Shown in pieces: positions 16,066-34,110 of a stretch of 64,000 bases of DNA; position 1 is the first letter of the stretch; every line of letters begins with the position of its first letter. Made by a program: the position numbers and the translations under genes. The DNA comes from Chishuiella changwenlii (lineage in GTDB: Bacteria; Bacteroidota; Bacteroidia; Flavobacteriales; Weeksellaceae): positions 1-64,000 of the forward strand of contig NZ_FRBH01000001.1 of the NCBI RefSeq assembly GCF_900142565.1, in the 5' to 3' direction. The notes below the pieces were generated by a model. That model was not told the DNA's origin and searched no databases. It saw only the letters and a program-made list of their open reading frames with translations.

Positions 16066-16102
16066 AAAAACAAAAAAGCCGTTTCGAAATCGAAACGGCT
16101 TT
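16066..16102 (-). terminator. Terminator of the ribosomal spc/alpha operon
   Basis: Thirteen-bp perfect stem (AAAGCCGTTTCGA / TCGAAACGGCTTT) followed by a T-rich tail on the minus strand, 22 bases after rplQ. Confidence 0.92.
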
Positions 16103-16124
16103 TATTATGTAATCAACTAATGGA

Positions 16125-16613
16125 TTAAGCTTCTTCTGTACCTTCAGTTTCAGTTGCTGGAGCTTCTGCAGCTGGAGCAGCTTCTTCTGTTTTAGTACTT
16201 TTTCTACTACGACGTGTAGTTGCTTTCTTCTCAACTTTTGCGTTAGAGTAGATTTCGTTGAAATCAACTAACTCAATCATTGCCATCTCAGCACCATCTC
16301 CTAAACGGAAACCAGTTTTGATGATACGAGTGTATCCACCTGGACGGTTAGCAATTTTAGGAGCAACAGTTCTGAATAATTCAGTAACTGCTTCCTTGTT
16401 TTGCAAATAAGAAAATACAACACGACGATTGTGAGTATCGTCTGTTTTAGACTTTGTCAATAAAGGCTCAGCATATTTTTGTAATGCTTTAGCCTTTGCT
16501 ACTGTAGTGTTGATACGTTTGTGAGTAATCAACGATATAGCTAAATTAGATAATAAAGCTCTTCTGTGAGAAGCAGTTCTACCTAAATGGTTAAATTTTT
16601 TTCCGTGTCTCAT
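16125..16613 (-). CDS. rplQ: 50S ribosomal protein L17
   Basis: Large-subunit protein near the exit tunnel. The first 118 residues are the conserved family ([48 protein letters not shown]). A C-terminal extension from about 125 to 162 is rich in Ala, Glu and Thr and is low-complexity, as is common in Bacteroidota L17. It is the last gene of the operon, after rpoA. Confidence 0.97.
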
Positions 16614-16624
16614 TTTTAATAAAA

Positions 16625-17617
16625 TTATTCTACGTCTAACTTATATTTTGCGATGTCCATTCCAAAGTTAAGACCTTTGCTGTCCACCAATTCTTCTAAC
16701 TCTGTAAGAGATTTCTTACCAAAGTTTCTGAATTTCATTAAGTCAGACTTAGCGAAAGAAACTAATTCGCCTAATGTTTCAACTTCAGCTGCTTTTAAAC
16801 AGTTTAATGCTCTTACTGATAAATCCATGTCAACCAATTTCGTCTTAAGTAATTGGCGCATATGTAACGCTTCTTCATCGTAAGTTTCACCAGATGCAAC
16901 TTCTTCAGCTTCTAATGTAATTCTCTCATCTGAGAATAACATAAAGTGGTGAATTAAGATTTTTGCGGCTTCAGTTAAAGCATCTTGTGGTGTAATAGAA
17001 CCGTCAGTCGTAATTTCGAAAACTAATTTTTCGTAATCCGTTTTTTGTTCTACACGATAGTTCTCAATTGCGTATTTTACATTCTTAATAGGAGTGTAAA
17101 TAGAATCGATAGCTATAGTACCTATTGGCGCAGAAGCCTTTTTATTCTCTTCAGCTGGTACGTATCCTCTACCTTTTTCTATTGTAAACGTTAAAGTAAC
17201 ATTTACTTTAGAATCTAAGTTAGCGATAACTAATTCAGGGTTTAAAACTTGAAATCCAGAGATAAACTTACCTAAATCACCCGCTGTTAATTGATTTTGC
17301 CCTGAGATAGTAGCAGTTACAGTTTCAGCATCTGATTCATCAATTTGTTTCTTAAAACGAACCTTTTTCAGATTTAAAATGATCTCTGTAACATCTTCCA
17401 CTACTCCTGGAATAGTTGAAAATTCGTGCTCAACACCTTCAATCTTAATCGACGTGATAGCATATCCTTCTAATGAAGAAAGTAAAACTCTACGTAGAGC
17501 ATTTCCAACTGTAATCCCGTATCCTGGCTCTAATGGACGAAATTCGAATTGTCCGAATCTAGAATCAGATTCAACTAAGATTACTTTGTCAGGTTTGATG
17601 AAATTTAAAATAGTCAT
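16625..17617 (-). CDS. rpoA: DNA-directed RNA polymerase, alpha subunit
   Basis: Assembly platform of RNA polymerase. Of 330 residues, about 1-235 are the N-terminal dimerisation domain ([32 protein letters not shown]) and about 255-320 the C-terminal domain with the helix-hairpin-helix [18 protein letters not shown] and [14 protein letters not shown] that contacts upstream DNA and regulators. It lies between rpsD and rplQ in standard alpha-operon order. Confidence 0.98.
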
Positions 17618-17639
17618 TTTATTAGTCTGATTTTATGGT

Positions 17640-18242
17640 TTATTTAGAATATAACTCGACGATTAATTGCTCTTTGATATCTTCTGGGATTTGAACTCTT
17701 TCTGGAGCTTTAGTAAAAGTACCAGCTTTTTGTTCGTCATTCCAAACTAACCAATCGTACTCGCGACGTGCATGTAAAGAGTTAGTAATTGCAGCTAAAG
17801 ATTTAGATTTTTCTCTAACAGCGATAACATCTCCAGCTTTTAATTGGTAAGATGGGATATTTACAACCTCTCCATTCACAGTTACGTGTTTGTGAGATAC
17901 TAATTGACGAGCCCCGCTACGAGAATTTGAGATACCTAAACGGTAAACTACATTATCTAAACGAGATTCACATAATTGTAATAATACTTCACCTGTAATT
18001 CCTTTAGATGCATTTGCTTTCTTGTATAAGTTAGCAAATTGACGCTCTAAGATACCGTAAGTATATTTTGCTTTTTGTTTTTCAGATAACTGAATTGCGT
18101 ATTCTGATTTTTTAGCTCTTCTTTTGTTAGGTCCGTGTTGCCCTGGAGGATATTTCTTTTTTTCGAAAGATTTATCGTCACCGAAAATTGGTTGTCCAAA
18201 TTTTCTTGCAATTTTAGTTTTTGGTCCTGTATATCTTGCCAT
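17640..18242 (-). CDS. rpsD: 30S ribosomal protein S4
   Basis: Primary 16S rRNA-binding protein. The 200 residues begin [20 protein letters not shown] and contain the S4 RNA-binding domain (about 92-155; [39 protein letters not shown]). The N-terminal region lacks the cysteines of zinc-binding S4 proteins. In E. coli S4 represses the alpha operon; no leader structure of that kind was looked for in detail here. Confidence 0.98.
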
Positions 18243-18287
18243 GATTTATTACTATTAAATATTAAATAATTAAATTGAGAAAAATGA

Positions 18288-18677
18288 TTATACTCTTCTC
18301 TTTTTAGGTGGACGACATCCATTGTGTGGAAGTGGAGTAACATCAACGATTTCTGAAACTTCGATACCACCATTATGAATTGTTCTAATAGCAGACTCAC
18401 GACCTTGACCTGGTCCTTTAACAAATACTTTAACTCTTCTTAATCCAGCTTCGTATGCAACAGTTGCTGCATCTTGAGCGGCTACTTGAGCAGCGTAAGG
18501 CGTGTTCTTTTTAGATCCACGGAATCCCATTTTACCTGCTGAAGACCAAGAGATAACTTCACCGTTTTTGTTCGTTAATGTAACGATTACGTTATTAAAC
18601 GATGCTTGAATATGAGCTTGTCCAGTAGCTTCTACAACTACTTTTCTTTTCTTTACTACTTTCTGATTTTTTGCCAT
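18288..18677 (-). CDS. rpsK: 30S ribosomal protein S11
   Basis: Platform protein of the small subunit. The 129 residues contain [40 protein letters not shown] and the C-terminal [10 protein letters not shown] signature. It is 10 bases after rpsM and 45 before rpsD. Confidence 0.98.
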
Positions 18678-18687
18678 GATCTACTTA

Positions 18688-19065
18688 TTATTTAGTGGCT
18701 TTTTTCTTGTTAGCAACTGTTTTCTTTTTACCTTTTCTTGTACGTGAGTTATTCTTTGTTCTTTGACCACGTAATGGTAAACCTAATCTGTGACGAATAC
18801 CTCTTTGACATCCGATATCCATTAAACGTTTGATGTTTAATTGGATTTCTGATCTTAATTCTCCTTCTACTTTGAAAGATTCATTAATCGATGCACGGAT
18901 TGCATTGATTTCTTCATCACTCCATTCGCTAACTTTCTTATCTTCTGAGATGTTATTCTCAGCTAAGATTTTAGAAGCACTACTTCTACCTACCCCGTAA
19001 ATGTATGTAAGTCCGATTACCCCTCTTTTATTTTTAGGTAAATCTACACCTGAAATTCTTGCCAT
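18688..19065 (-). CDS. rpsM: 30S ribosomal protein S13
   Basis: Head protein of the small subunit contacting tRNA and the large subunit. The 125 residues begin [20 protein letters not shown] and contain the [20 protein letters not shown] motif and a lysine-rich C-terminus. It follows rpmJ by 12 bases. Confidence 0.98.
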
Positions 19066-19077
19066 AACTCTAAATAA

Positions 19078-19194
19078 TTAACCTTGTCTTTGTTTAAACT
19101 TAGGATTCTTTTTGTTGATCACATACAAACGTCCTTTACGACGTACAATCTTACAGTCAGCACTTCTCTTTTTAATGGATGCTCTAATTTTCAT
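19078..19194 (-). CDS. rpmJ: 50S ribosomal protein L36
   Basis: A 38-residue protein, too short for ordinary gene callers, read as [20 protein letters not shown] followed by [18 protein letters not shown]. Only one of the zinc-binding cysteines of classical L36 is left (the first pair is SADC instead of CRNC, and VINK replaces VIC), so it is a zinc-independent form. Position between infA and rpsM is the standard one. Confidence 0.95.
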
Positions 19195-19269
19195 CTTTGT
19201 AAATTTATTTATAATCCGATAGAGTTAACGCCGAAACATTAACTCTACCACCTGTCGTTAAATATTTTT

Positions 19270-19485
19270 TTAGTATCTATAAGATATTCTACCTTTTGTT
19301 AAATCATAAGGAGACATCTCTATTTTAACTCTATCACCTGGTAAAAGCTTAATATAATGCATACGCATTTTACCAGATATATTACATGTTACTACATGTC
19401 CATTTTCTAATTCGACACGGAACATTGCATTAGATAATGCTTCTGTAATCGTACCGTCTTGTTCAATATGTTTTTGTTTTGCCAT
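19270..19485 (-). CDS. infA: Translation initiation factor IF-1
   Basis: A 71-residue OB-fold factor that occupies the A site during initiation. [40 protein letters not shown] and the C-terminal [10 protein letters not shown] are characteristic. It lies 23 bases after secY and 75 before rpmJ. Confidence 0.97.
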
Positions 19486-19508
19486 AAATCTTTTTAATAA
19501 TAACCTTA

Positions 19509-20879
19509 TTAGATATCTCTTGATGTTCTACCAGAAGTCATTAATCCATCGTAACGATGATTTAATAAATACGTATTAATTTGCTGAACAGTATCTAAGA
19601 TAACTCCCACCATAATTAACATTGAAGTACCTCCAAAGAACATAGCTAAGCTTTGTTCAACACCTAATAATTTTACAATAGCTGGCAAAACAGCAAGCAA
19701 AGTTAGTAAAATTGCTCCAGGTAACGTAATTTTTGATAAAATTTCGTCTAAAAAATTTGCAGTTTCTTTTCCAGGACGTATTCCAGGGATGATTCCACCG
19801 TTACGTTTTAAGTCTTCAGCCATCTGATTTACTGGGATTGTAATCGCAGTATAGAAATAAGTGAAGATAATAATTAGTAAACCGAAGATCAAATTATATT
19901 CCCACGTAAATGGATCTGCCATTTTCGCAAAGAATTGTTTTACTGAACTTGTGTCGTCTAAGAAATAGTTTGCTAATGTTCCTGGTAAAAACATAATTGC
20001 TTGCGCGAAGATAATTGGCATTACACCAGCTGCATTTACTTTTAGAGGAATATAAGAACGTACAGAATCTGTAACCGATCTCATATAAGAACTACTAGAA
20101 GTTTGCGCTCTTCTTACATATTGCACTGGTACTTTACGCACTGCTGCAACAATCATAATACACATTGCAATAACTAGGATTAAACCTAGCATTTCTATCA
20201 AGAAGAAAATACCATTTGAAGGATCTACTTCAAATGCATTGAAAATTGCTTTTGGTAAATCAGCTAAGATACCAACCATAATTAAGATTGATATACCGTT
20301 ACCGATACCTTTGTCAGTAATTTTTTCTCCCATCCACATGGCAAAAATAGTTCCTGTAATCAGAATAACTGTTGAAGGGAACCAAAACCAAAAGTTGGTT
20401 GGAGGAATTACATAGATAGCATACGATGAAGCTGGATCATAAGGTAAAATCTGAGAAGTTACCAATGTTAAATATGCTGGTGCTTGCACTAAACATATAC
20501 CAATTGTTAACCATCTTGTAATTTGATTTACTTTGTTACGACCGCTTTCTCCTTCTTTCTGTAGTTTTTGGATATAAGGCACTGCCATTCCCATCAATTG
20601 TACAACAATCGAAGCTGAGATATAAGGCATAATTCCTAACGCAAATACGGAAGCTCTTTTAAAAGAACCTCCGGTAAAAGAGTTTAATAATCCTAAAATT
20701 CCTGAATTTGCATTTTCTTGGTCTGTTATAAAACGATTAACTTCGTTAATATCGACACCTGGAAGTGGAATATGAGAACCGAATCTATAAACCAATAATA
20801 GAAGGATAGTTACAAGTAACTTATCCTTCAATTCTTTTATGCTCCAGATATTTTTTATGGTCTGTATAAACCCTTTCAT
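19509..20879 (-). CDS. secY: Preprotein translocase subunit SecY
   Basis: Channel subunit of the Sec translocon with ten membrane helices in 456 residues. Recognisable parts are the N-terminal [12 protein letters not shown] segment, the plug-region [20 protein letters not shown], the loop [13 protein letters not shown] and the cytoplasmic loop [20 protein letters not shown]. Partner SecE is encoded at 49229-49417; SecG is not in the window. Confidence 0.97.
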
Positions 20880-20894
20880 CTATAAAATATATTC

Positions 20895-21350
20895 TTAAGC
20901 GTTAACTAATTCTACTTTACCTCCTGCTTTCTCAATAGCCTCTTGAGCTGATTGAGTGAATTTATCTGCAGTAACATTAACAGTAGCTTTTAACTCTCCA
21001 CGTCCTAAGATTTTCACTAAGTCGTTTTTGTGAGCTAAACCTAATTGTACTAATGTTTCTTTATTTAAAGTATCTGTGATTTTATTGTTATCAACTAATT
21101 GTTGAATAGTGTCTAAATTGATTCCTGTATACTCAACACGGTTGATGTTTTTGAAACCAAATTTAGGTAAACGTCTTTGTAAAGGCATTTGTCCTCCTTC
21201 GAATCCGATTTTTCTTGAATAACCAGAACGAGATTTAGCACCTTTGTGTCCACGACCTGCTGTTAAACCGTTTCCACTACCTTCACCTCTACCTTTACGG
21301 AATTTATTTTTTACTGAACCAGCTGCTGGTTTTAAATTACTTAAATTCAT
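20895..21350 (-). CDS. rplO: 50S ribosomal protein L15
   Basis: Late-assembly large-subunit protein of 151 residues. The basic glycine-rich N-terminus ([40 protein letters not shown]) and the C-terminal VELVNA end are typical. It is 15 bases before secY. Confidence 0.97.
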
Positions 21351-21379
21351 TTTAATAATCTTTTAAAGGTTAAAAGCGA

Positions 21380-21559
21380 TTAAGCTCTTTCTACTACTAC
21401 TAAGTGTTGAATTTTACGAATCATTCCTTCGATTTGAGGAGTTGATTCGTGCTCAACTACTTGATTCAACTTCTTTAATCCTAAAGCAACTAATGTAGCT
21501 TTTTGAGATTTATCACGGTTGATAGCACTACGTGTTTGTTTTACTCTTACTTTGCTCAT
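21380..21559 (-). CDS. rpmD: 50S ribosomal protein L30
   Basis: A 59-residue protein read directly from the sequence: MSKVRVKQTRSAINRDKSQK, then ATLVALGLKKLNQVVEHEST and PQIEGMIRKIQHLVVVERA. It fits between rpsE (11 bases upstream) and rplO, its standard position, and has the L30 fold signature KATLVALGLKKLN. Confidence 0.95.
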   Translation of the reverse strand: MSKVRVKQTRSAINRDKSQKATLVALGLKKLNQVVEHESTPQIEGMIRKIQHLVVVERA

Positions 21560-21570
21560 GATACTTTTTT

Positions 21571-22092
21571 TTAACCGTTGAACACTTTAGTTATAGAAAT
21601 ACCTCTTTGGCGTGCAATTGTTTCTACAGAACGTAAGCTTAATAAAGCGCGGAATGTAGCTTTTACTGCATTGTGAGGGTTAGATGATCCTTTAGATTTT
21701 GATAATACATCATGTACACCAACAGACTCTAATACTGCACGAACTGTTCCTCCTGCAATTACCCCTGTACCTTTTGCTGCTGGACGGATGAATACTTGCG
21801 CACCACCGAAACGAGCTTCTTGTTCGTGAGGAATTGTGTTGTTAAATAAAGGAACACGTACTAAGTTTTTCTTAGCATCTTCGATAGCTTTAGCAATAGC
21901 TGAAGCAACATCTTTAGATTTACCTAATCCGTAACCTACTACTCCATTTCCGTCTCCAACTACTACGATAGCAGAAAAACCAAATGCTCTACCTCCTTTT
22001 GTTACTTTTGTAACACGTTGTACTCCAACTAAACGATCTTTTAAATCCAATCCTGTTGGTTTTACTCTTTCTACGTTTTTAAATCCTAACAT
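21571..22092 (-). CDS. rpsE: 30S ribosomal protein S5
   Basis: Small-subunit protein involved in decoding fidelity. The 173 residues contain the double-stranded RNA-binding-like domain ([37 protein letters not shown]) and the C-terminal domain ([35 protein letters not shown]). Confidence 0.98.
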
Positions 22093-22108
22093 AATTTCTT
22101 TCTCTTTT

Positions 22109-22462
22109 TTAGAATTTTAATCCACCTTCTCTAGCACCATCTGCTAAAGCTTTGATTCTACCATGATACACGAAACCGTTACGATCAAAAACTACAGTTT
22201 CAATTCCTTTAGCTACAGCTTTTGCTGCTAAAGCTTTACCTACAGATGCAGATACTTCACTTTTTGTACCTTCTACATTAACACCTTTTTCACGAGATGA
22301 TGCAGAAGCTAAAGTAACTCCACTGTTATCGTCAATAATTTGAGCGTAAATTTCTTTATTAGAACGGTAAACTGATAAACGAGGTTTAGTTTCTGTTCCA
22401 AAAATATTTCGACGCACGCGTCTTTTTATTTTTTGTCTTTTTTCTACTTTAGATAATGCCAT
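22109..22462 (-). CDS. rplR: 50S ribosomal protein L18
   Basis: 5S rRNA-binding protein of 117 residues: [32 protein letters not shown] and the C-terminal [20 protein letters not shown]. It is 16 bases from rpsE and 13 from rplF. Confidence 0.98.
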
Positions 22463-22475
22463 TTTTCAATGATTT

Positions 22476-23021
22476 TTATGCAGATTTACCTGCTTTTCTT
22501 CTAATAATTTCTCCTACGAATTTAATTCCTTTTCCTTTGTAAGGCTCTGGCTTACGGTAAGAACGAATTTTCGCTACAATCATTCCTAATAATTGATTAT
22601 CATGAGATGATAATGTAATAATAGGATTTTTACCTTTTTCTGTTAAAGTTTCAACTTTAATTTCTTGAGGTAATTCGATTACGATATTGTGAGAGAAACC
22701 TAATGACAAATCTAATTTTTGTCCTTGGTTAGATGCTCTGTAACCAACACCAACTAATTCTAATTGTTTTTTGAAACCTTCTGTCACACCAACAATCATG
22801 TTGTTGATTAACGCACGGTATAAACCATGTAAAGCTCTGTTTGTTTTAGAATCATCTGGACGAACTACAGTTAAAACTCCGTCTTCGATTTTTACATCAA
22901 ATCCTTCGTTTAATTCTCTTGTCATTTCGATGTTATTACCTTTTACAGTAATTACGTTATCTTTAAATTCAACTGCTGCAGCTGAAGGGATATTGATTTG
23001 TGATTGTCCTATTCTTGACAT
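22476..23021 (-). CDS. rplF: 50S ribosomal protein L6
   Basis: Large-subunit protein near the factor-binding site, 181 residues in two similar domains. MSRIGQSQINIPSAAAVEFK begins the first; the second ends in the family signature RKPEPYKGKGIKFVGEIIRR KAGKSA. Confidence 0.98.
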   Translation of the reverse strand: MSRIGQSQINIPSAAAVEFKDNVITVKGNNIEMTRELNEGFDVKIEDGVLTVVRPDDSKTNRALHGLYRALINNMIVGVTEGFKKQLELVGVGYRASNQGQKLDLSLGFSHNIVIELPQEIKVETLTEKGKNPIITLSSHDNQLLGMIVAKIRSYRKPEPYKGKGIKFVGEIIRRKAGKSA

Positions 23022-23043
23022 AATTTCTTAATTTTTTAAATGA

Positions 23044-23445
23044 TTAATAAACTAAACATAAAACTTCACCACCAACATTCTCTTGACGTGCTTGCTTATC
23101 TGTCATAACTCCTCTAGAAGTAGAAATGATCGCGATACCTAAACCGTTTAATACACGAGGTAATTCTTTAGATCCTGCATATTGACGTAAACCTGGAGTA
23201 GAAGCTCTCTTAATTTTACGGATAGCTGGCTCTTTAGTAACTTTGTCGTACTTTAAAGCGATTTTAATTGTTCCTTGAGGTTTGTCTTGTCCTTCGAATT
23301 TGTAGTTCAAGATGTAACCTTGTTCAAAAAGGATTTTAGTAATTTCCTTTTTTAATTTAGACGCAGGGATTTCCACAACTTTGTGTCCTGCCATCATTGC
23401 ATTTCTAACACGAGTTAGAAAATCTGAAATTGGATCTGTATACAT
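23044..23445 (-). CDS. rpsH: 30S ribosomal protein S8
   Basis: 16S rRNA-binding assembly protein; in E. coli it is also the repressor of the spc operon. The 133 residues contain [20 protein letters not shown] and the C-terminal [20 protein letters not shown]. It is the first gene of the block here: the usual upstream neighbour rpsN is missing and a promoter with its own leader of about 75 bases stands in front. Confidence 0.98.
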
Positions 23446-23498
23446 AATATAATTCTATAGTATAGCGCGTTAACACTACTTTTAAAATTAAACTTTTA

Positions 23499-23520
23499 CC
23501 AAAATGCACTATGCATTTGG
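23499..23520. promoter_or_regulatory. Palindrome at the predicted rpsH transcription start
   Basis: CCAAAATGCA and TGCATTTGG form a near-perfect inverted repeat with a two- to three-base centre. It begins just after the -7 box of the rpsH promoter, so it is either an operator or a stem-loop at the very 5' end of the mRNA. Confidence 0.5.
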
Positions 23521-23524
23521 GTTG

Positions 23525-23554
23525 CAAATATATGGGATATTTTTTAATTACAAA
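23525..23554 (-). promoter_or_regulatory. Promoter of rpsH and the following ribosomal genes
   Basis: On the minus strand TTTG (23551-23554), 18 bases and TATATTTG (23525-23532). The -7 box is exact. Start of transcription is expected near 23520, about 75 bases before the rpsH ATG. Confidence 0.75.
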
Positions 23555-23659
23555 CTATACTGCAGAAAAATATTTTTTTAATTGAAGAAGTGAAAGGTTT
23601 TGAATATGATTTAAAATTGAAAAATGAAAGTTGAAAGTTGAAAGTTCGAGATTGGAAAT

Positions 23660-24156
23660 TCGAGATTGTTTTTTTTGTCTAATTTCTCGATACAATTTTT
23701 CTTCATTTTCATTTCGAAAAACCACTCGAAAAGACAGAAAACTACACCTTACAACTCTAATCTTTTCAAACGTTCAGCGTTCAGCCTTAACCCATTTATC
23801 GAAACTACACTTCGGCAAAACTTTTAAATTTGAAATTGAAAGTTCGAGATTGTTTTTTTTGTCTAATTTCTCGATACAATTTTTCTTCATTTTCATTTCG
23901 AAAAATCACTCGAAAAGACAGAAAACTACACCTTACAACTCTAATCTCTTCAAACGTTCAGCGTTTAGCCTTAACCCATTTATCGAAACTACACTTCGGC
24001 AAAACTTTTAAATTTGAAGTTGGAAGCTCGAGGTTGTTTTTTTTGTCTAATTTCTCGATACAATTTTTCTTCATTTTCATTTCGAAAAATCACTCGAAAA
24101 GACAGAAAACTACACCTTACAACTCTAATCTCTTCAAACGTTCAGCGTTTAGCCTT
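23660..24156. repeat. Tandem array, three copies of a 184-bp unit
   Basis: The anchor 'gtctaatttctcgatac' starts at 23677, 23861 and 24045, exactly 184 bases apart. Each unit contains an internal partial inverted pair (TGTCT..TCTCGA and TCGAAAAGACA), the run 'ttcattttcatttcgaaaaa' and 'aacgttcagcg'. Copies two and three differ from copy one by few substitutions. A related two-copy array is at 28515-28866. Confidence 0.9.
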
Positions 24157-24198
24157 CCAACACATCACTCAAAACTTCTAACTTCTAATTTCTACAAA

Positions 24199-24233
24199 TA
24201 AAAAAATGACTTGAGATTCCTCCCAAGCCATTT
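24199..24233 (-). terminator. Terminator after the first S74 gene
   Basis: Minus-strand stem AAATGGCTTGGGA / TCTCAAGTCATTT with G-U pairs, followed by Ts. It resembles the hairpin at 26179-26213, so the two were probably duplicated with the genes. Confidence 0.75.
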
Positions 24234-24270
24234 ATTACATGAAGACATAACCAACCCCCTTCATAAAAAC

Positions 24271-26007
24271 CTATTTCTTTCTCTCATCTCTTAGATAAGT
24301 ATTTTCTTTTTTTAAAGCATTTAATTCTGCTTCTATCACTTTTATTTTTTCATTTAATGCTTTTATAGACTCTACAAAAATAGCATCATAATCTCCGTAA
24401 GCCGTTTGCAAATAACCTTGTTTATCTGTTGTTACTTTTTCAGGAAATACTTGTTGTATATTTTGCGCTATAAAACCTATTTGTTTTTCTTTTGGTCTTT
24501 CTGTCCCAGTTTTATCATCGTTCCAATAATACGTTACACCTTCTAGCTTAGTTAATTTACTTAACGCATCCTCTCCAGAAATTGGTTGTATATCCTTTTT
24601 TAAACGTGAATCTGAATTTGCAAGAAATGCACCTGCTGTTGTTTTAGAAGCTTCTCCGTTTATCTCTAATCTATTTGTCTCAGCTGCTCTTCCCATCCCA
24701 ATTAAACCTTCAGAAGAAATGATCATTCTTGCTTGAGTAACTATAGTTCCTAAAGGAACAGTATGAAATCGTAAAGAACTTCCTTGTGCACTTGTTGTAA
24801 AAGTTTCTGCTGCTATTGATTGTATACTTGAATTTGATTGTATTGGATCTCCTTGGTAACCACTTCCTGTATTACCAACAAACGTAATCGCACCTAATAT
24901 ATCATTTGTTGTAACTGCACCATGTACATTTGTATCTGAAGATTTATTTCTTCTTAAAGAAATATAAGGAGGGTTAGTTGGGCCATTATTTGACCTTTCT
25001 GAAATAATTCCGTTCGCAGCTGTTGTATTAATATGGAATTGTCCAGCTGGTGTTCCTGTCCCTACTCCTATTCTACCTTGATCTGTAATTGTCATTCTAA
25101 GCGCATTAATCACAGATCCTCTAGGAACTGTCCTAAATTCCATAAGACTTCCTTTAGCCGTTTCTCTAAAATTTTCTACAGCTGATACTAATATTGACGA
25201 ATTAGAATTTCTTACATCTCCTGAATAACCATCGCCAGTATTTCCAGAAAAAACAAGTGCTCCTAAAGCATCATTCGCAGCTACTGCTCCATTCTCTCTA
25301 GCAGTAGAAGCTTTATTTTTCTTTAAAATTAAATAGGGTGGAGCATTATCAATCGACCATCTCTCTGATATAATTCCTTCAGGAGAGTTAGTAGAAATAT
25401 GTAATTGACCATTTGGAGTCTCTGTCCCTATTCCCACTCTACTTCTGTCAGTAATTGTCATTCCAACATTACTAGTAATAGTACCTGCTGCAACTGTAGT
25501 AAATTTTAATAAACTTCCTTGATTAGTTGTTGAAAAATTTTCAGCTGCTATTGACTGTATACTTGAATTGGTATGTATAGGATCTCCTTGATAACCATTC
25601 CCTGTATTTCCAGAAAAAGTTATAGCGCCTAATATATCATTCACAGCAGCTGCTTCATTTGTACTTAAGTCACTAGATCTATTTCTTCTAAAGTTAATAT
25701 AAGGTGGAGAATTAGGATTTGTATTCGCTCTTTCTGAAATAATTCCATTAGGTCCAGTTGTAGAAACATGAAGCTGACCAGCTGGAGCTGTTCTATTTAT
25801 TCCTACTCTACCTTGATCGGTTACTGTTACCGTCTCTGTATTATCGGAATTGCTTATTCTCATTGATTTTGTTGCAGCAGTACTACCTGTGCTTAAGATA
25901 TCTAATGTTGCCTGAGGTGTTGCGGTATTTATTCCTACTTGGGAAAAAACAATACCTGATAAGATCATATTAGACAACACAAAAAGTCTAAATGTAGATT
26001 TGTTCAT
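24271..26007 (-). CDS. Secreted S74-type tail-fibre-like protein, triplicated stalk
   Basis: A 578-residue protein with a signal peptide (about 1-22, cut before QVGINTATPQATLDI). The stalk has three similar modules of about 125 residues, beginning near RVGINRTAPAGQLHVST, RVGIGTETPNGQLHIST and RIGVGTGTPAGQFHINT, each with PPYI or APPYL and a VLGAITFSGNTGxGYQGD-like stretch. The C-terminal intramolecular chaperone domain (peptidase family S74, about 460-545) has the self-cleavage motif NSDSRLKKDI and the segment KQIGFIAQNIQQVFPEKV, then a coiled coil. By family it trimerises, cuts itself at that serine and leaves a beta-helical fibre. A phage-type domain, here without phage neighbours. Confidence 0.85.
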   Translation of the reverse strand: MNKSTFRLFVLSNMILSGIVFSQVGINTATPQATLDILSTGSTAATKSMRISNSDNTETVTVTDQGRVGINRTAPAGQLHVSTTGPNGIISERANTNPNSPPYINFRRNRSSDLSTNEAAAVNDILGAITFSGNTGNGYQGDPIHTNSSIQSIAAENFSTTNQGSLLKFTTVAAGTITSNVGMTITDRSRVGIGTETPNGQLHISTNSPEGIISERWSIDNAPPYLILKKNKASTARENGAVAANDALGALVFSGNTGDGYSGDVRNSNSSILVSAVENFRETAKGSLMEFRTVPRGSVINALRMTITDQGRIGVGTGTPAGQFHINTTAANGIISERSNNGPTNPPYISLRRNKSSDTNVHGAVTTNDILGAITFVGNTGSGYQGDPIQSNSSIQSIAAETFTTSAQGSSLRFHTVPLGTIVTQARMIISSEGLIGMGRAAETNRLEINGEASKTTAGAFLANSDSRLKKDIQPISGEDALSKLTKLEGVTYYWNDDKTGTERPKEKQIGFIAQNIQQVFPEKVTTDKQGYLQTAYGDYDAIFVESIKALNEKIKVIEAELNALKKENTYLRDERKK

Positions 26008-26034
26008 TAAATTAGTATTAGAGTTAAGATTTTG

Positions 26035-26065
26035 TAAATGTATATATTTTTATTTAAAAAAACAA
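26035..26065 (-). promoter_or_regulatory. Promoter of the first S74 gene
   Basis: TTG (26063-26065), 20 bases and TACATTTA (26035-26042) on the minus strand, one mismatch from the -7 consensus and similar to the better promoter at 28379-28409. Confidence 0.5.
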
Positions 26066-26178
26066 TAAATAACTAATGATTTTCAATACTTTACAACTTA
26101 TAAAGTATTTACTAAATGGTAATTACAGGTTATCAATTAAACGTGTGAGATGTAATCTATACATTCTACTCATAACTC

Positions 26179-26213
26179 ATAAAAAATGACTTAAGATTTC
26201 TCCTAAGTCATTT
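26179..26213 (-). terminator. Terminator after the second S74 gene
   Basis: Stem AAATGACTTAGGA / TCTTAAGTCATTT followed by Ts on the minus strand; a sister of the hairpin at 24199-24233. Confidence 0.75.
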
Positions 26214-26251
26214 ATGTTTCTACATATTTATAATCTTCAATAAAAAATAAC

Positions 26252-27268
26252 CTATTTCTTTTCTTTATTTTTCTTTTCTTTATTTTTTAGTTCAGTATTT
26301 TCTTTTTCCAGTTTTTCTATTAAACCAGTTAACAATGTAATTCTATCATTTATTTTTTTTAGAGATTCTACAAAAATCGCATCGTAGTCGCCATAAGCCG
26401 TTTGTAAATACCCTTCTTTATCTGTTGTTACTTTGTCTGGGAATACTTGTTGTATATTTTGCGCTATAAAACCAATTTGTTTTTCTTTTGGTCTATCTAT
26501 TCCTGTTTTATCATCGTTCCAATAATAGGTTACACCTTCTAATTTGGTTAATTTATTTAGAGCTTCTTCACCAGAAATTGTTTGTATATCCTTTTTTAAA
26601 CGTGCATCCGAATTCGCTATAAATGCTCCTGCTGTTGTTTTAGAAGCCTCTCCATTCACCTCTAATCTATTAGTTGTTGGCGTTCTTCCTATCCCCACCA
26701 AACCTTCAGAAGATATTCTCATTCTAACAACATTTGATGCAGATCCATTAGCAACGGTATAAAATAACATATTACTTCCTTGCGCAGTTGGTGTAAAGTT
26801 TTGTGCAGCAATAACTTGTATATTAGAGTTTGAACTTAACGCATCTCCGGCATAACCACTTCCTGTATTTCCTGCAAAGGTAATTACACCTAATACATCA
26901 TTCGCTACAACTGCTCCATCCACAGCCGGATCAGTAGATCTATTATTTCTTAAAGAAATATAAGAAGGAGCCGTAGCAACTGTATTTGCTCTCTCCGAAA
27001 TAATACCATTAGCAGCTGTTGTTGCAACATGAAATTGACCAGCAGGAGCTGTTCTTCCTATTCCCACTCTACCTTGGTCGGTTACGGTTACCGTCTCTGT
27101 ATTATCGGAATTGCTTATTCTCATTGATTTAGTTGCAGCAGTATTACCAGCACCAACAATATCTAATGTAGCCTGAGGTGTTGCAGTATTTATTCCAACC
27201 TGAGAATAAGTAAAACCTGATAATAATATACTGGATAAGGTAAAAAGTCTAATTATAGATTTTTTCAT
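26252..27268 (-). CDS. Secreted S74-type tail-fibre-like protein, short form
   Basis: A 338-residue paralog of its two neighbours with one stalk module. The signal peptide starts MKKSIIRLFTLSSILLSGF and ends before QVGINTATPQATLDI. The frame is open to 27340, but the sister proteins begin at MKKS, so the ATG at 27268 is used. The S74 domain begins at about residue 215 with NSDARLKKDIQTISGEEAL and keeps KQIGFIAQNIQQVFPDKV; the C-terminus is a lysine- and glutamate-rich coiled coil ending in KKNKEKK. It is 82 bases downstream of the third S74 gene with no terminator between, so the two probably share a transcript. Confidence 0.85.
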   Translation of the reverse strand: MKKSIIRLFTLSSILLSGFTYSQVGINTATPQATLDIVGAGNTAATKSMRISNSDNTETVTVTDQGRVGIGRTAPAGQFHVATTAANGIISERANTVATAPSYISLRNNRSTDPAVDGAVVANDVLGVITFAGNTGSGYAGDALSSNSNIQVIAAQNFTPTAQGSNMLFYTVANGSASNVVRMRISSEGLVGIGRTPTTNRLEVNGEASKTTAGAFIANSDARLKKDIQTISGEEALNKLTKLEGVTYYWNDDKTGIDRPKEKQIGFIAQNIQQVFPDKVTTDKEGYLQTAYGDYDAIFVESLKKINDRITLLTGLIEKLEKENTELKNKEKKNKEKK

Positions 27269-27349
27269 AATACATATTGGTTTTAGGTTTATTATTTTAG
27301 ATGTAAAAAAACAAGATAATATGATCTTCACATTTAACAAGTAAAGTAT

Positions 27350-28345
27350 CTATTCGTTTTTTTTCAGCTTTTTATTTTCTTTTTCTAAATTTTCTAATCT
27401 GCCAGTTAATTTGATCACTTTATTGTTTAATTCTTTTATAGATTCTACAAAAATCGCATCGTAATCGCCATAAGCCGTTTGTAAATACCCTTGTTTATCT
27501 GTTGTTACTTTATCTGGGAATACTTCTTGTATATTTTGCGCTATAAAACCAATTTGTTTTTCTTTTGGTCTATCTATTCCTGTTTTATCATCGTTCCAAT
27601 AATAGGTTACACCTTTTAATTTGGTTAATTTATTTAATGCTTCTTCACCAGAAATTGGTTGTATATCCTTTTTTAAACGTGCATCCGAATTCGCTATAAA
27701 TGCTCCTGCTGTTGTTTTTGAAGCCTCTCCATTTACCTCTAATCTATTGGTTGTTGGCGTTCTTCCTATCCCCACCAAACCTTCAGAAGAAATTGTCATT
27801 CTAACAGCACTTAATGCAGATCCATTAGCAACGGTATAAAATAACATACTACTTCCTTGTGTTGCAGCTGTAAAATCTTGTGCAGCAACAACTTGTATAC
27901 TTGAATTTGAACCTAATGCATCTCCGACATAGCCACTTCCTGTATTTCCTGCAAAGCTAATTACACCTAATATATCATTCGCTGCAACTGCTCCATTTAT
28001 AGCTGGATCTACAGATCTATTTTTTCTTAAAGAAATATAAGAAGGAGCCGTAGCACCTGTATTTGCTCTCTCCGAAATAATACCATTAGCCGCAGTTGTC
28101 ACAACATGCAATTGCCCAGCTGGAACTGTAGATCCTATCCCCACTCTACCTTGATCGGTTACTGTTACCGTTTCGGTAGCACTGGAATTATTTATCCTCA
28201 TGGATTTGGTTGCAGCAGTATTACCAGGACTATTAATATCTAACGTTGCTTGAGGTGTCTCTGTATTTATTCCGACTTGGGAAAAAGCTACACTAGATAA
28301 TAAGACATTAGACAATATAAAAAGTCTAATTGTAGATTTTTTCAT
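27350..28345 (-). CDS. Secreted S74-type tail-fibre-like protein, short form
   Basis: A 331-residue secreted protein, very similar over its whole length to the product of the downstream gene, so the pair is a recent tandem duplicate. Signal peptide MKKSTIRLFILSNVLLSSVA, then QVGINTETPQATLDI; one stalk module with RVGIGSTVPAGQLHVVT and VLGxISFAGNTGSGY-like text; S74 chaperone domain from about residue 218 (NSDARLKKDIQPISGEEALN) and a C-terminal heptad helix (ELNNKVIKLTGRLENLEKEN). It has the best promoter of the group. The function of the released fibre, adhesin or surface layer, is not known. Confidence 0.85.
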   Translation of the reverse strand: MKKSTIRLFILSNVLLSSVAFSQVGINTETPQATLDINSPGNTAATKSMRINNSSATETVTVTDQGRVGIGSTVPAGQLHVVTTAANGIISERANTGATAPSYISLRKNRSVDPAINGAVAANDILGVISFAGNTGSGYVGDALGSNSSIQVVAAQDFTAATQGSSMLFYTVANGSALSAVRMTISSEGLVGIGRTPTTNRLEVNGEASKTTAGAFIANSDARLKKDIQPISGEEALNKLTKLKGVTYYWNDDKTGIDRPKEKQIGFIAQNIQEVFPDKVTTDKQGYLQTAYGDYDAIFVESIKELNNKVIKLTGRLENLEKENKKLKKNE

Positions 28346-29009: not shown

Positions 29010-30548
29010 ATGAAAAAAATACTATTCTTTTTTTTCCTTTATCTTGCCTATCATTCATATAGCCAAGTCGGAATCGGTAATTCAACACCAAGAGGTGCAT
29101 TAGATATTAACCGACCTACAACAAACACATACGGATTAGTGTTACCTACAAATTCTTCTGTAACAAATATTGTTAATCCTCGTGGTGGAGCAATAGCTCC
29201 TGCTACAACTATCTATGAAAGCTCAAACGATTGTATAAGACATTACAGACAATCTGCATGGTCTAATTGTTTACTAACAGAAAACGGTAGTCTATTTAAC
29301 ATTAGCAAGGTAGAACAAGCAAGTACATTTACTGGTACATATAAAAGTAATGTTGCTATGACAACTGCTAATACTTATGTGGTAGGTATAAAAAATGAGT
29401 CGCCTACAGCTGTATCTATTACCTTATCTACCTTCGATCTTAAACTTTCTGGGGTGGAAGGCATATCTGTTGCATCTGTAGCCCCTGCTACTGTCACTAT
29501 ACAGCCAGGACAAACTGCTCTAGCAACATACAGATTAACAGGCACGCCTACAACTTGTGGAACACTTACGGGTACTTGGAATAAAATGAAACTAAACCAT
29601 ACTGCAACTGTAGATGTTCTTGCAAATCCTACTTACCAATGTAACTTAGGTTCTTGGAATAACACTGTAGCTCCTGAATATAGAATAAACGGATTAATAC
29701 CAGGCGTATCTTACACAGGTACTTATACCATACCTTATACGGGTAGTAGCGAATCTGATTGTGAATTACAATTACCTGCAGAAACCATTACACAAGACGG
29801 GTTAACATTAACCTACACTGGTGGTCCTGTTTCACCTACAGGGACTATTACCTATACATTATCGGGTACCTATACTGGTCCTAATAATGGGGCTATAACT
29901 TTTACTACAGCAAGTGGTTGCCAAATATACTTAGGTCCATGCCGTTCATGTAAAGAATTAATAAATTTATTTCCTGGCACACCAAGCGGTGTATATACTT
30001 TTAATTTATATAAAGGTGTATCTACTAGTTCTTACATTCATAACTTATATTGTGATATGACGACAAATGGTGGTGGTTGGACTTTAGTATCTCGTAATGG
30101 TTCAAGTTCTAGATTTGGACAATCAGGAAGAAACACTATCTCTGAACCTACTGACAATGGTTATATATTTCGTTCAATTCTTATTTTAATAGCAAATGCT
30201 GGTACTCAAGTACAATTAAGATCGGGTAGCTCTCCAACAAATTATGCACATAGAATAACTTCTCAACCAGAAGGTCCAGCTATACTTGCATTAAGAAGTT
30301 CAGACAATACAAATGCAGGCTCTGGAACTTGGCATAGAAGTGGAGTTATTCAAGATTTTATGAATAATACTACTATTAGCCCTACAGGTTCTTGGAGTTG
30401 GGCAGTATCCTGTCAGTCTACTGCTGCAGGTTGGCCTAGAATGTTTCATGCATGTGGAAATACTAACAGTGTACATTGGTATATGGATGTAATAACAGAG
30501 AATAGAACTTCTTCTGGTGATTCATGGGCTTCTACATGGATAAGATAA
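29010..30548 (+). CDS. Secreted fibrinogen-like GGGW-domain protein, copy 1
   Basis: A 512-residue secreted protein. Signal peptide about 1-18 (MKKILFFFFLYLAYHSYS), then QVGIGNSTPRGALDI; a short region with paired cysteines (DCIRHYRQSAWSNC, about 75-88); Ig-like beta-rich repeats (about 100-320) with Cys pairs and the stretch SYTGTYTIPYTG; and a C-terminal fibrinogen-related domain starting CKELINLFPGTPSGVYTF, with YCDMTTNGGGWTLVSR near 347-362 and the end ASTWIR. No type IX secretion tail is seen. Bacterial proteins of this type may bind glycans, but the ligand is not predictable. Copies 2 and 3 follow. Confidence 0.8.
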   Translation: MKKILFFFFLYLAYHSYSQVGIGNSTPRGALDINRPTTNTYGLVLPTNSSVTNIVNPRGGAIAPATTIYESSNDCIRHYRQSAWSNCLLTENGSLFNISKVEQASTFTGTYKSNVAMTTANTYVVGIKNESPTAVSITLSTFDLKLSGVEGISVASVAPATVTIQPGQTALATYRLTGTPTTCGTLTGTWNKMKLNHTATVDVLANPTYQCNLGSWNNTVAPEYRINGLIPGVSYTGTYTIPYTGSSESDCELQLPAETITQDGLTLTYTGGPVSPTGTITYTLSGTYTGPNNGAITFTTASGCQIYLGPCRSCKELINLFPGTPSGVYTFNLYKGVSTSSYIHNLYCDMTTNGGGWTLVSRNGSSSRFGQSGRNTISEPTDNGYIFRSILILIANAGTQVQLRSGSSPTNYAHRITSQPEGPAILALRSSDNTNAGSGTWHRSGVIQDFMNNTTISPTGSWSWAVSCQSTAAGWPRMFHACGNTNSVHWYMDVITENRTSSGDSWASTWIR

Positions 30549-30569
30549 TAACTATCAATTCATTTGGGA

Positions 30570-30605
30570 TGCAAAAGCTCTTTATCAATAAAAAGAGCTT
30601 TTGCA
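30570..30605 (+). terminator. Hairpin after fibrinogen-like copy 1
   Basis: Perfect 14-bp stem (TGCAAAAGCTCTTT and its complement) 21 bases after the stop, without a T run. A shorter, related hairpin follows copy 2. Confidence 0.6.
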
Positions 30606-30695
30606 CTTACCTAAGTAAAAACATTATTTAATATTCTTAAGAAACATAATCTTAATTCAATTTAGATAAATCAACAACAAATGTAAAAATTGTTA

Positions 30696-30712
30696 TGCTG
30701 AGCCTGTCGAAG
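30696..30712 (+). repeat. Dispersed 17-bp repeat TGCTGAGCCTGTCGAAG
   Basis: Exact inverted counterpart of 12721-12737. Both copies are intergenic and are followed or preceded by AT-rich text. Confidence 0.6.
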
Positions 30713-30845
30713 TATCATTAACTTCTCTTTGATTTTTAACTAAATGAGATCATGAAACGACATTTCTAATTGGCTAAATACAACACATTACAATAAAAAC
30801 AAGATTAACATTAAAAATTATTGTTTAATACCAACATAACCAACT

Positions 30846-32441
30846 ATGAAAAAAATATTATTCTTTTTAGTTCTCCATCTTAGCTATTTATCGTTTAGTC
30901 AGGTGGGTATAGGTACTACAACTCCTAGAGGAGATTTAGATATTAATACCCCACTTACTAATATCTATGGACTGGTATTACCTACTAATGCTTCTCCTAC
31001 AAACATACAAAATCCACAAGGAGAAAGTATCGCGTTTGGAACAATGATGTACGACAGTTCTGCTAATTGTATAAGATACTATGAGAAAAACATACAAAAT
31101 GATGTTTCTGAAGCGAGATGGTCAAATTGTTTACTTACAGACAGAGAAAACCCTCCGTCTATTGATTATATTGCTGTCCCCCCTGCTTTTACAGGTAATT
31201 ATACCCAAAATGTTGCTATGACATCGGCTAACACGTTTAGAGTTGCCATTACAAATATATCTTTTACTACTGTAACAATAAGCTTAGCACGAACAGATTT
31301 AATACTTGCTGGGATAGAAGGGATAGAAGTATCTGCTGTATCACCAACAACAGTTACATTAACCCCAGGACAAGTACAATTGTTAACCTATACATTAACT
31401 GGGACACCTACAAACTGTGGACCATTAATTGGTACATGGAAAAAACTAAATTTACAATACACAGCAAGTACGACTGTAAAACCAAACATAACTTATACTT
31501 GTGCATCTGGAACTTGGGGAAATACGGTATCACCAGAATATAGATTAAATGGTTTAGTACCAGGTGAATCCTATACAGGTACTTATACGATACCTTACAC
31601 AGGTAGCGATGCTTCTAGTTGTGATTTACCTGCAGAAACAATTACACGAGATGGCTTAACATTAAGCTATCCTGGTGGTCCTGTTTCATCTACAGGGACT
31701 ATTACCTATACATTAACGGGTACCTATACTGGTTCTGAAAGCCAAGCACAAGCAACATTTGTTACCGCAAGTGGTTGCCAAATTTATTTAGGTCCATCTA
31801 GTTCTTGTAAAGATATACTAACAAAATTACCTGGCACACCAGATGGGGTATATAGAATAGATGTTGATCAACAAGGGACTACTTACGGAACATTAAGCGC
31901 ACAATGCGATATGACAACAGATGGTGGGGGATGGACTATGGTCTTAAATTACTTACATTTGGGTGGTACTAATCCTGCTGTTTCTATTAGAACTACTTTA
32001 CCAGTTATAGGAAATTCTACATTAGGAGGTAATGAAGCTGGGAATGAAACTTTTTGGGGCCATGTAAACAGGGCTTTACAAACCGCTTTACGACCTTCAG
32101 AATATCGTTTCTACGGAATTACAAATGGACATAACAGGGTGATCCATTTTAAAACTGCTCATACTGGTAGTATAACTAAATTTACTACTGGAGTAGGAAA
32201 TGCAAGTGGTTTACAAAATTCATTTACACCACTTGATGGGCATACAGGTATTTTACCTGCAGCAGCAAATACATTTTTTAATTCTAGTGCTAATCTCGAA
32301 TTAACATTTCACCCTTTCTACTTCTCTCCGACACCTGTAGCAACTAACCTTTGGAGTATAAGTGCTAGTTCTAGATGGGAAGTAGATGATGCTCCTAGTA
32401 ATGCTTCTCGCAGTACACTCCATAGAGTATGGGTAAGATAA
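30846..32441 (+). CDS. Secreted fibrinogen-like GGGW-domain protein, copy 2
   Basis: A 531-residue paralog with the same layout: signal peptide MKKILFFLVLHLSYLSFS, QVGIGTTTPRGDLDI, NCIRYYEKNI..RWSNC, beta-rich repeats with NGLVPGESYTGTYTIPYTG, and a fibrinogen-related domain from about residue 320 (CKDILTKLPGTPDGVYRI) with QCDMTTDGGGWTMV. After that motif the sequence departs from copies 1 and 3: residues 365-531 (EAGNETFWGHVNRALQ, HNRVIHFKTAH, STLHRVWVR) have no counterpart in them. The N-terminal two thirds are therefore shared and the likely ligand-binding end is replaced. Confidence 0.8.
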   Translation: MKKILFFLVLHLSYLSFSQVGIGTTTPRGDLDINTPLTNIYGLVLPTNASPTNIQNPQGESIAFGTMMYDSSANCIRYYEKNIQNDVSEARWSNCLLTDRENPPSIDYIAVPPAFTGNYTQNVAMTSANTFRVAITNISFTTVTISLARTDLILAGIEGIEVSAVSPTTVTLTPGQVQLLTYTLTGTPTNCGPLIGTWKKLNLQYTASTTVKPNITYTCASGTWGNTVSPEYRLNGLVPGESYTGTYTIPYTGSDASSCDLPAETITRDGLTLSYPGGPVSSTGTITYTLTGTYTGSESQAQATFVTASGCQIYLGPSSSCKDILTKLPGTPDGVYRIDVDQQGTTYGTLSAQCDMTTDGGGWTMVLNYLHLGGTNPAVSIRTTLPVIGNSTLGGNEAGNETFWGHVNRALQTALRPSEYRFYGITNGHNRVIHFKTAHTGSITKFTTGVGNASGLQNSFTPLDGHTGILPAAANTFFNSSANLELTFHPFYFSPTPVATNLWSISASSRWEVDDAPSNASRSTLHRVWVR

Positions 32442-32461
32442 TAACGAACAATTTTTTTGGT

Positions 32462-32498
32462 ATGCAAAAGTTCTCTCAACCAACAAGAGCTTTTGCAT
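32462..32498 (+). terminator. Hairpin after fibrinogen-like copy 2
   Basis: Stem ATGCAAAAG / CTTTTGCAT, extended by TCTCT / AGAG, about 21 bases after the stop. Same text type as the hairpin after copy 1. Confidence 0.55.
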
Positions 32499-32550
32499 TT
32501 ACCAAATTAAAATTCTGAAGAAACATAATTTTAACTTAACACTACCAACT

Positions 32551-34110
32551 ATGAAAAAAATATTATTATTTTTAGTTCTCCATCTTAGCTATTTATCATT
32601 TAGCCAAGTGGGAATAGGCACTACAACTCCTAGAGGTGCTTTAGACATTAATAACCCAACTACTGCTATTTTCGGATTAGTATTACCAACAAATGATTCT
32701 CCTGATAACATGATAAATCCACAAGGGGGAAATATCGCATTTGGAACTATAATGTATGATAGTAAAGACGATTGTATAAGATATTACCAAACAAACACAG
32801 CAAATGATAGTATAGAAAAATGGTCTTCTTGTATTTTAAAAGCAACTGATAGAAATGCTTTTAAATTAAATTATATTCCTATAGGCAAATCTTTTACAAG
32901 CAATTATAAAAAAGGTGTTACGATGACAGCTGCCAATACATTTAGAATTGCTGTTACTAACGAAGGCTATTCTCCTGTAACTGTTAACTTTTCACCTAGT
33001 GATTTAGTACTTTCTGGTATAGAAGGAATTACAGCAACCTCTGTATCTCCTACATCGGCTACTTTAAATGCAGGTGCCACTGTAGAACTTACGTATAGAT
33101 TATCTGGTGCCCCTGCTGATTGTGGAATTTTAACAGGTACTTGGACAAAATTAGATTTACAATACTCAGCTCCTGTAAATGTAGCACCAAGTCCAATCTA
33201 CAATTGTACACAAGGATCTTGGAATGAATCTGTAATACCAGAAGAATATAAATTAAATGGTTTAATTTCTGGGCAATCATATACAGGTACCTATACTATT
33301 CCTTACACAGACGATACCGAATCTAATTGTGATATACCTGCAGAAACAATTACAAAAGATGGATTAACATTAACATACACTGGTGGTCCTGTTTCCGCTA
33401 CCGGGACTATTACCTATACATTATCTGGTACCTATACAGGTCGTAACAATGGATCTGTAACTTTTGTTACAAACACAGGATGTTGGATTTATTTAGGTCC
33501 ATTTGGAAGTTGTAAGGAATTATTAGAAAAGATACCTGATACACCAAGTGGTTTATATTATTTTGATTTACATAAAAACGTGAATACTTCTCCTTATATT
33601 AATAGACTATATTGTGATATGACGACTGATGGTGGAGGTTGGGCTTTAGTAGCTCGTAATGGATCTACCTCTAGAACAGGTCAAACTGCAAGAAATCTTA
33701 TTTCTGAACCAACTGATAATGGATATCTACCTCGTACAACTGTTACTTTAATTGCAAATACTGGTAGTCAAGTACAATTAAGATCGGGTAATTCTCCAAC
33801 AAATTATGCTCATAAAATAACTTCGCAACCAGGTGGTGCAGCTATACTTGCATTAAGAAGTGGAGGAAATGTAAACGGAGGCTCTGCAACTTGGCACAGA
33901 GCTGGGGCTGTTCAAGATTTTATGAATAATCCTACTATTCGACCAATTGGAACTTGGAATTGGGAAGTATCTTGTCAAACAAGTGCTGTTGGTTGGCCTA
34001 AGATGTATCATTCATGTGGAATTACTAATAATGTGCATTGGTTAATGGACTTTATAGAGGAAAATCGAACTTCAATAAGTGATCCATGGGCTTCTACATG
34101 GATAAGGTAA
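32551..34110 (+). CDS. Secreted fibrinogen-like GGGW-domain protein, copy 3
   Basis: A 519-residue paralog. The signal peptide MKKILLFLVLHLSYLSFS is almost that of copy 2, followed by QVGIGTTTPRGALDI. Middle: DCIRYYQTNTAND..KWSSC and beta repeats with SYTGTYTIPYTDD. The C-terminal fibrinogen-related domain (YCDMTTDGGGWALV near 353-366, NYAHKITSQPGGAAILALRS, WASTWIR at the end) matches copy 1, not copy 2. In the GGGW motif the usual T is replaced by A. It ends at a strong terminator. Thus the N-terminus resembles copy 2 and the C-terminus copy 1, as expected from recombination among paralogs. Confidence 0.8.
   Translation: MKKILLFLVLHLSYLSFSQVGIGTTTPRGALDINNPTTAIFGLVLPTNDSPDNMINPQGGNIAFGTIMYDSKDDCIRYYQTNTANDSIEKWSSCILKATDRNAFKLNYIPIGKSFTSNYKKGVTMTAANTFRIAVTNEGYSPVTVNFSPSDLVLSGIEGITATSVSPTSATLNAGATVELTYRLSGAPADCGILTGTWTKLDLQYSAPVNVAPSPIYNCTQGSWNESVIPEEYKLNGLISGQSYTGTYTIPYTDDTESNCDIPAETITKDGLTLTYTGGPVSATGTITYTLSGTYTGRNNGSVTFVTNTGCWIYLGPFGSCKELLEKIPDTPSGLYYFDLHKNVNTSPYINRLYCDMTTDGGGWALVARNGSTSRTGQTARNLISEPTDNGYLPRTTVTLIANTGSQVQLRSGNSPTNYAHKITSQPGGAAILALRSGGNVNGGSATWHRAGAVQDFMNNPTIRPIGTWNWEVSCQTSAVGWPKMYHSCGITNNVHWLMDFIEENRTSISDPWASTWIR

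Follow-up and report, generated by a model that had tools for sequence, protein, structure and literature searches.

A split between rpsN and rpsH in the ribosomal supercluster of Chishuiella changwenlii and a candidate S8 leader at the same junction

The closest described system to the locus reported here is the S8 autoregulatory site of the Escherichia coli spc operon, which lies at rplE and carries in mRNA the RNA core of 16S helix 21; the available portion of the source gives the S8 site of helix 21 as A595-(A596-U644), (G597-C643)-U641 and A642 (PMC4176348), and the available part of a 2024 review presumes that the spc operon of Vibrio cholerae is regulated as in E. coli. Structured leaders are also described from Flavobacteria, for S4, S15 and S16 (Eckert and Weinberg 2020, PMC7247131), and the text of that paper, as far as it was accessible, contains neither 'uS8' nor 'S8 leader' nor 'rpsH', with 'ribosomal protein S8' present in the reference list only. 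Another paper reports that parts of the conserved cluster can be lost, split off or interrupted by insertions; its main text, in its accessible portion, lacks 'Bacteroid' and mentions no S8 leader in connection with a break. In the accessible portions of the literature searched (including PMC4176348, PMC10931766, PMC7247131, PMC8046335, PMC9976891, PMC2704228 and PMC11109978), in which subscription papers are little covered and absence is therefore unproven, we found no S8 leader of Flavobacteriales.

We analysed a 64,000-nucleotide stretch of Chishuiella changwenlii (positions 1 to 64,000 of contig NZ_FRBH01000001.1, assembly GCF_900142565.1; hereafter the window), in which the S10-spc-alpha supercluster is cut directly before rpsH. 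The locus shares with the E. coli site the helix 21 core, here in an rpsH leader, with the Flavobacteria leaders a structured RNA immediately ahead of the gene for a ribosomal protein, and with the published cluster variants the separation of parts of a conserved cluster; it differs from E. coli in that the candidate S8 site stands before rpsH, with its own promoter-like site in Empedobacter, and not at rplE. We consider it probable that a real rearrangement cut the supercluster between rpsN and rpsH, and that the cut was tolerated because it fell on the boundary of two independently expressed units, the second with feedback through an S8 leader. A gene cluster that ranks among the best conserved in bacteria would then have parted where transcription seemingly already had a boundary and feedback a self-contained site, which would link a regulatory change to a change of gene order.

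Location and origin of the split

Gene names in the window and on contig C4 were assigned by reading translations, S8 also by Pfam, and the open-reading frame cut-off of 80 aa leaves shorter genes (e.g. rpmJ, infA, rpmD, rpmC) unlisted. The downstream part of the supercluster occupies 16125..23445 of the minus strand in the order rplQ-rpoA-rpsD-rpsK-rpsM-...-secY-rplO-...-rpsE-rplR-rplF-rpsH, with a 443 bp stretch between rpsM and secY that has room for rpmJ/infA and a 220 bp stretch between rplO and rpsE that has room for rpmD; positions 16056-23581 share 93% DNA identity with C1:467254-474762 of the related genome G004. The first gene of the separated half is rpsH (23044..23445, minus strand), which encodes ribosomal protein S8 of 133 aa (PF00410 match at C11:23047-23436). 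Beyond it, neither rpsN nor any earlier S10-spc gene is seen in the open-reading frame lists of the window, and in their place stand a tandem repeat found by repeat scan (23651..24156; 184-bp period, 2.8 copies), which adjoins the break, and three related surface-type genes on the minus strand (24271..28345; 24271-26007, 26252-27340 and 27350-28345), the first of which carries a Peptidase_S74 domain in a Pfam scan of that gene. Also part of the island that separates rpsH from the rpoC side are three neighbouring paralogues of 512-531 aa on the plus strand (29010..34110), the first of which gives a fibrinogen-C-like match that is weak and misses the Pfam cut-off. Compared with 320 kb of G004, this surface-gene island was unmatched except for the end of the rpsH leader and copies of the repeat.

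An earlier sequence-only reading had claimed that the supercluster is broken exactly in front of rpsH, with rpsN and the preceding genes missing beside it and repeats and surface-protein genes there instead, and had proposed a search for rpsN and rpsJ-rplE in the full genome; the observation is confirmed. S14 gave one match at E ≤ 0.001 in the genome, at C4:100664-100822, where rpsN ends an intact block of rpsL-rpsG-fusA-rpsJ-rplC-rplD-rplW-rplB-rpsS-rplV-rpsC-rplP-(rpmC)-rpsQ-rplN-rplX-rplE-rpsN. The supercluster is consequently discontinuous, rpsN lying on C4 and rpsH on C11, and the rpsJ-rpsN block is absent from the few kb around rpsH, where its presence had been named as the sign of an assembly error. 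Behind rpsN on C4, the opposite strand encodes a DUF3857 protein ca. 50 bp away, and the intervening junction is unique sequence with a terminator-like hairpin.

The draft assembly consists of 23 contigs and the 184-bp repeat that flanks the break on C11 belongs to a dispersed intergenic family with at least 48 matches in the genome (40 of 119 first-look candidates scored), many of which cover only a core of ca. 72 bp, so a misjoin at the tandem repeat, with rpsH truly following rpsN, had to be weighed. Both break sites, at ca. 100.8 kb of the 362,367 bp C4 and at ca. 23.4 kb of the 372,012 bp C11, lie well inside contigs of more than 360 kb, the 184-bp repeat is absent from the rpsN|DUF3857 junction (its only C4 matches are at ca. 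262 kb), two independent errors would be required, the neighbourhood is widely rearranged relative to G004, and the same junction is split or opened in further family genomes. A misjoin, which the sequence-only reading had offered as one cause, is therefore highly improbable; the break before rpsH is a genuine feature of the assembly and does not have the appearance of an artefact of repeats.

Gene order was then compared within the genus, taken as Empedobacter in the GTDB sense (13 other genomes, 14 with our own). All 13 of the other genomes have rpsN and rpsH together on a single contig, with gaps (all gap figures include the rpsN stop codon) of 213-4,068 bp: eight of 213-269 bp, one of 966 bp and four of 4,026-4,068 bp. 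The block that stands behind rpsN on C4 lies within ca. 10 kb of the window's rpoC-side block in all 13, its DUF3857 gene being matched only in G002, G004 and G012; in G004 the DUF3857-side and rpoC-side blocks are ca. 5.5 kb apart and ca. 105 kb from rpsN|rpsH. Because the relatives keep rpsN and rpsH together and the C4 block near the rpoC side, the split is the derived state, and by this comparison of gene order it arose in our genome's own lineage amid other rearrangements: C4 and 320 kb of G004 share 14 chains of matches in both orientations. A simple inversion was considered as a candidate and set aside; the orientations join the rpoC side to rpsH and rpsN to the DUF3857 block, and many more blocks are involved, so we name no single event. 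An exact reciprocal exchange was weakened on two counts: the 5.5 kb between the two blocks of G004 are unmatched in C4 and in the first 164 kb of C11, and the surface-gene island of the window has no counterpart in the compared 320 kb beyond the end of the leader and copies of the repeat.

The 184-bp repeat had also been suggested as the cause, through recombination between its copies. The repeat lies directly at the C11 break and its next best copy is close by (C11:28504-28866), but none is present at the partner junction on C4, and in G004, the sole relative compared for this purpose, the matches fall at ca. 293.5-296 kb of the 320 kb and at neither ancestral junction. With the partner junction unique and repeat-free and with many other rearrangements relative to G004, this suggestion finds no support and we regard it as distinctly unlikely.

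A candidate S8 leader before rpsH and its relatives

Directly before rpsH lies a leader hairpin (23450..23490, minus strand) that displays the S8-binding core of 16S helix 21 and is a candidate S8 autoregulatory site, identified by an alignment (A1), a search with model R1, 16S comparison and folding. Its core strands are AAGU at 23481-23478 and AUACU at 23463-23459, 4 nt separate the end of the hairpin from the rpsH start codon, and the R1 match spans 23443-23494. Both core strands are invariant in 20/20 rows of A1, in which 94.7% of cells are paired and covariation is 0.234, a value attained by none of 500 shuffles (mean 0.110) and by no slid control (highest 0.080). Changes on both sides of a pair occur in 3/16 pairs, a count which is equalled or exceeded by 111/500 shuffles and surpassed by the -1 slid control (4 two-sided changes), and nine pairs are invariant. 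The leader folds into the S8-type hairpin with z-scores of -2.40 (92 nt) and, modestly, -1.45 (58 nt, hairpin alone); the corresponding values are -2.83 for a Flavobacterium leader and -0.39, hardly better than shuffles, for an Apibacter leader. As the assembly gave no 16S match, 16S of relatives was used for the comparison: the S8 core of helix 21 is present in 5/6 of their 16S loci, and the sixth, G004, was unmatched on either strand. We take the U598-A640 pair to be part of the S8 site in 16S.

Like other ribosomal protein leaders, the element is a covarying structure that closely precedes the gene of a ribosomal protein, and it shares with the E. coli spc type the internal-loop core of helix 21 in mRNA. 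The position differs: the rplX-rplE junction of our genome is 2 nt long, and no S8 core was found in the 150 nt before or the 150 nt after the rplE start. The leader also falls outside the described Rfam families, since Rfam 15 at gathering threshold returned nothing in the window beyond four tRNAs, gave only sub-threshold matches to unrelated families at the leader, and left the leader of ten relatives unmatched. The same scan recovered the S4-Flavobacteria leader RF03141 in 4/10 of those relatives (L076:11124, L088:11186, L112:11024, L102:11453) and, at gathering threshold, not in our window. We read the element as a putative S8 autoregulatory leader located before rpsH and not at rplE as in E. 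coli.

The distribution of the leader was followed in a family set of 197 genomes from 33 genera, in which R1, trained on sequences from many of the genomes that it later found, matched 33 genomes of 5 genera once each, directly before rpsH in 33/33. In a strict scan, 52/80 named loci have the core and a stem of four or more pairs within 120 nt before rpsH, two of them spurious (L113 and L115, inside rpsN); 30 rounds of shuffling gave 0.97 on average and never more than 3. Seventeen of these motif loci are of Weeksellaceae type and the others mostly carry a Flavobacteriaceae form with AGGU + ANACC, in which (25 rows) 97.0% of cells are paired, covariation is 0.420 against 0.145 in shuffles (0/500) and at most 0.120 in slid controls, and 7/12 pairs change on both sides. 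A model of this form, R2, run on 68/80 loci (12 Weeksellaceae-type loci left out), matched 35 loci, ten of them outside its training set, all at or beside the rpsH start and nowhere else in 794 kb; the five Weeksellaceae-type loci in the run were unmatched. The strict scan found no motif in 28/80 named loci, of which L080 and L133 match R2. In many of the motif-less loci rpsN and rpsH are 14-36 bp apart, so that the leader is dispensable in them.

A third form is present in family genomes that R1 does not match. An alignment of it (A3) was rejected as poor, with the L201 row on wrong coordinates and distal stems too variable, and scoring was done arm by arm. In this scoring of core and helices 19/20 R1-negative family regions reach at least 8 of 10, compared with 7.25% of 400 shuffles, and the outer helix shows compensatory changes; the best placement in L198 is unlike the other 18, and L212 (G028) scores 3. 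The rpsN-rpsH gaps of these regions (L193-L212) combine the S8-type core (19/20) with highly variable distal stems containing short repeats, and several arms resemble 16S beyond the core (GACAAUUAAGU ... AUACUGAUUGUC compared with GACCAAUAAGU ... AUACUGUUGGUC in 16S).

The S8 reading rests on mimicry of sequence and structure, and a further hairpin of the leader stands ahead of this one at 23499..23520; a leader RNA with a structure but no affinity for S8, for instance a transcript stabiliser or the site of another protein, would fit both. We nonetheless think this unlikely, as three forms keep the S8 internal-loop core directly before rpsH, with the pair equivalent to 596-644 being A-U or G-C. 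The candidate S8 leader offers a concrete site, open to test, in many Flavobacteriales.

Terminator-like and promoter-like elements and repeated opening of the junction

In the relatives, rpsN is followed by a hairpin with a T run, then by a promoter-like site and last by the leader, all within the gap before rpsH; inserts, where present, sit between the hairpin and the promoter-like site. In our genome a pattern scan places the promoter-like site, TTTG-N18-TATATTTG, at 23525..23554 (minus strand), in the same place as in the relatives; it fits the consensus of the Bacteroidota type, and the predicted transcript start lies just downstream. The preceding hairpin mentioned above, CCAAATGCATAGTGCATTTTGG (23499..23520, minus strand), is the first of the leader, near-palindromic and conserved in most of the genus by comparison of relatives. 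A scan of 526 kb of this genome, made up of 362 kb of C4 and 164 kb of C11, found its 17-bp core at this one place. The strict promoter pattern precedes rpsH in 10/17 Weeksellaceae-type named loci and was absent from L069, L070, L071, L078, L081, L082 and L075, the last cut by a contig edge; it occurs also in L121, L122 and L139, but more than 250 bp upstream.

That rpsH has a good promoter and its own leader, as the sequence-only reading had proposed, holds for a promoter-like site and a candidate leader, but the adaptation to the break read from them does not: relatives with rpsN upstream of rpsH have both, which must therefore predate the break. The resemblance of the leader to the S8 site had gone unnoticed in that reading. 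A terminator-like stop, a promoter-like site and an S8-site hairpin already in place in relatives suggest that the rpsH half was a self-regulated module, separable without harm. The intrinsic-terminator-like hairpin behind rpsN would end the upstream unit, and the promoter-like site would start transcription of the rpsH half, which with a terminator upstream and a promoter of its own would be independent of rpsN. Free S8, in excess over 16S rRNA, would bind the leader hairpin near the rpsH start codon and lower translation initiation of rpsH and of the genes behind it, so that the rpsH-rplQ half would keep its own feedback with no need of rpsN upstream. The break would then be permitted, not selected.

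Among the junctions of the supercluster, breaks were counted at rpsN|rpsH, which was opened or split in 13/32 informative R1 genomes (the thirty-third, G096, being cut by a contig edge and giving no S14 match), although these are not independent counts, since members of a genus have a common past. Four are split (G000, G022, G079 and G088) and nine have gaps widened to 719-4,070 bp (G002, G003, G004, G006, G007, G050, G060, G066 and G070). G022, G079 and G088 (L214-L220) belong to the Moheibacter group; G079 and the 76%-complete G088 share a new upstream context with an Rrf2-like regulator, named from its translation, whilst that of G022 differs. The strict promoter pattern stands before the leader in 13/13 of the opened or split genomes and also in some closed ones, e.g. 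G074 with a 397-bp gap, and is absent from the short-gap, leader-bearing named loci L078, L081 and L082. In the Apibacter group (g17) 9/9 genomes are closed with short gaps, and of the 164 R1-negative genomes none of the 96 scored for the gap (68 were unscored) is opened, the distance between their S14 and S8 domains being 33-367 bp. In five R1-negative genomes of groups g9 and g21 (L196-L200) a gap of 341-355 bp holds stretches that resemble a terminator and a promoter, yet the junction is unopened.

These counts bear on a further explanation, that the split is a neutral accident in a plastic region to whose tolerance leader and promoter are incidental. The 14 two-orientation chains between C4 and G004 and the dispersed repeat adjoining the break are what such plasticity would leave behind, but openings of the junction are spread over four R1 genus groups and in every case accompanied by the promoter pattern, against 0/9 in the short-gap Apibacter group and 0/96 in the scored R1-negative genomes, and we find a purely neutral account doubtful. 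The preferred reading, tolerance of the break at a pre-existing boundary, may extend beyond our genome, and we lean slightly towards a wider version of it, in which Flavobacteriales have an S8 site before rpsH in at least three forms, a promoter added in some lineages made the second half separable, and the junction was then reopened repeatedly and became a docking slot for cassettes passed between genera.

The cassette concerned is a thiamine operon between rpsN and rpsH in 4/14 genomes of the genus (L051-L054) and in G060 (L213:297-3826) of another genus, in a genus group that includes Vaginella massiliensis. It comprises a HAD hydrolase, tenA, thiD, thiE and thiM (Pfam on the G060 copy), and a TPP riboswitch was found on the E. 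brevis copy L066 (Rfam). The G060 cassette is 91.5% identical to that of G002 and 92.8% to that of G003, far above the ca. 79-80% of rpsH, which points to horizontal exchange for these lineages only, and the operon has apparently moved between genera, between the lineages of G060 and of G002/G003. Its identities to the copies of G006 (80.0%) and G007 (77.3%) fit descent alone.
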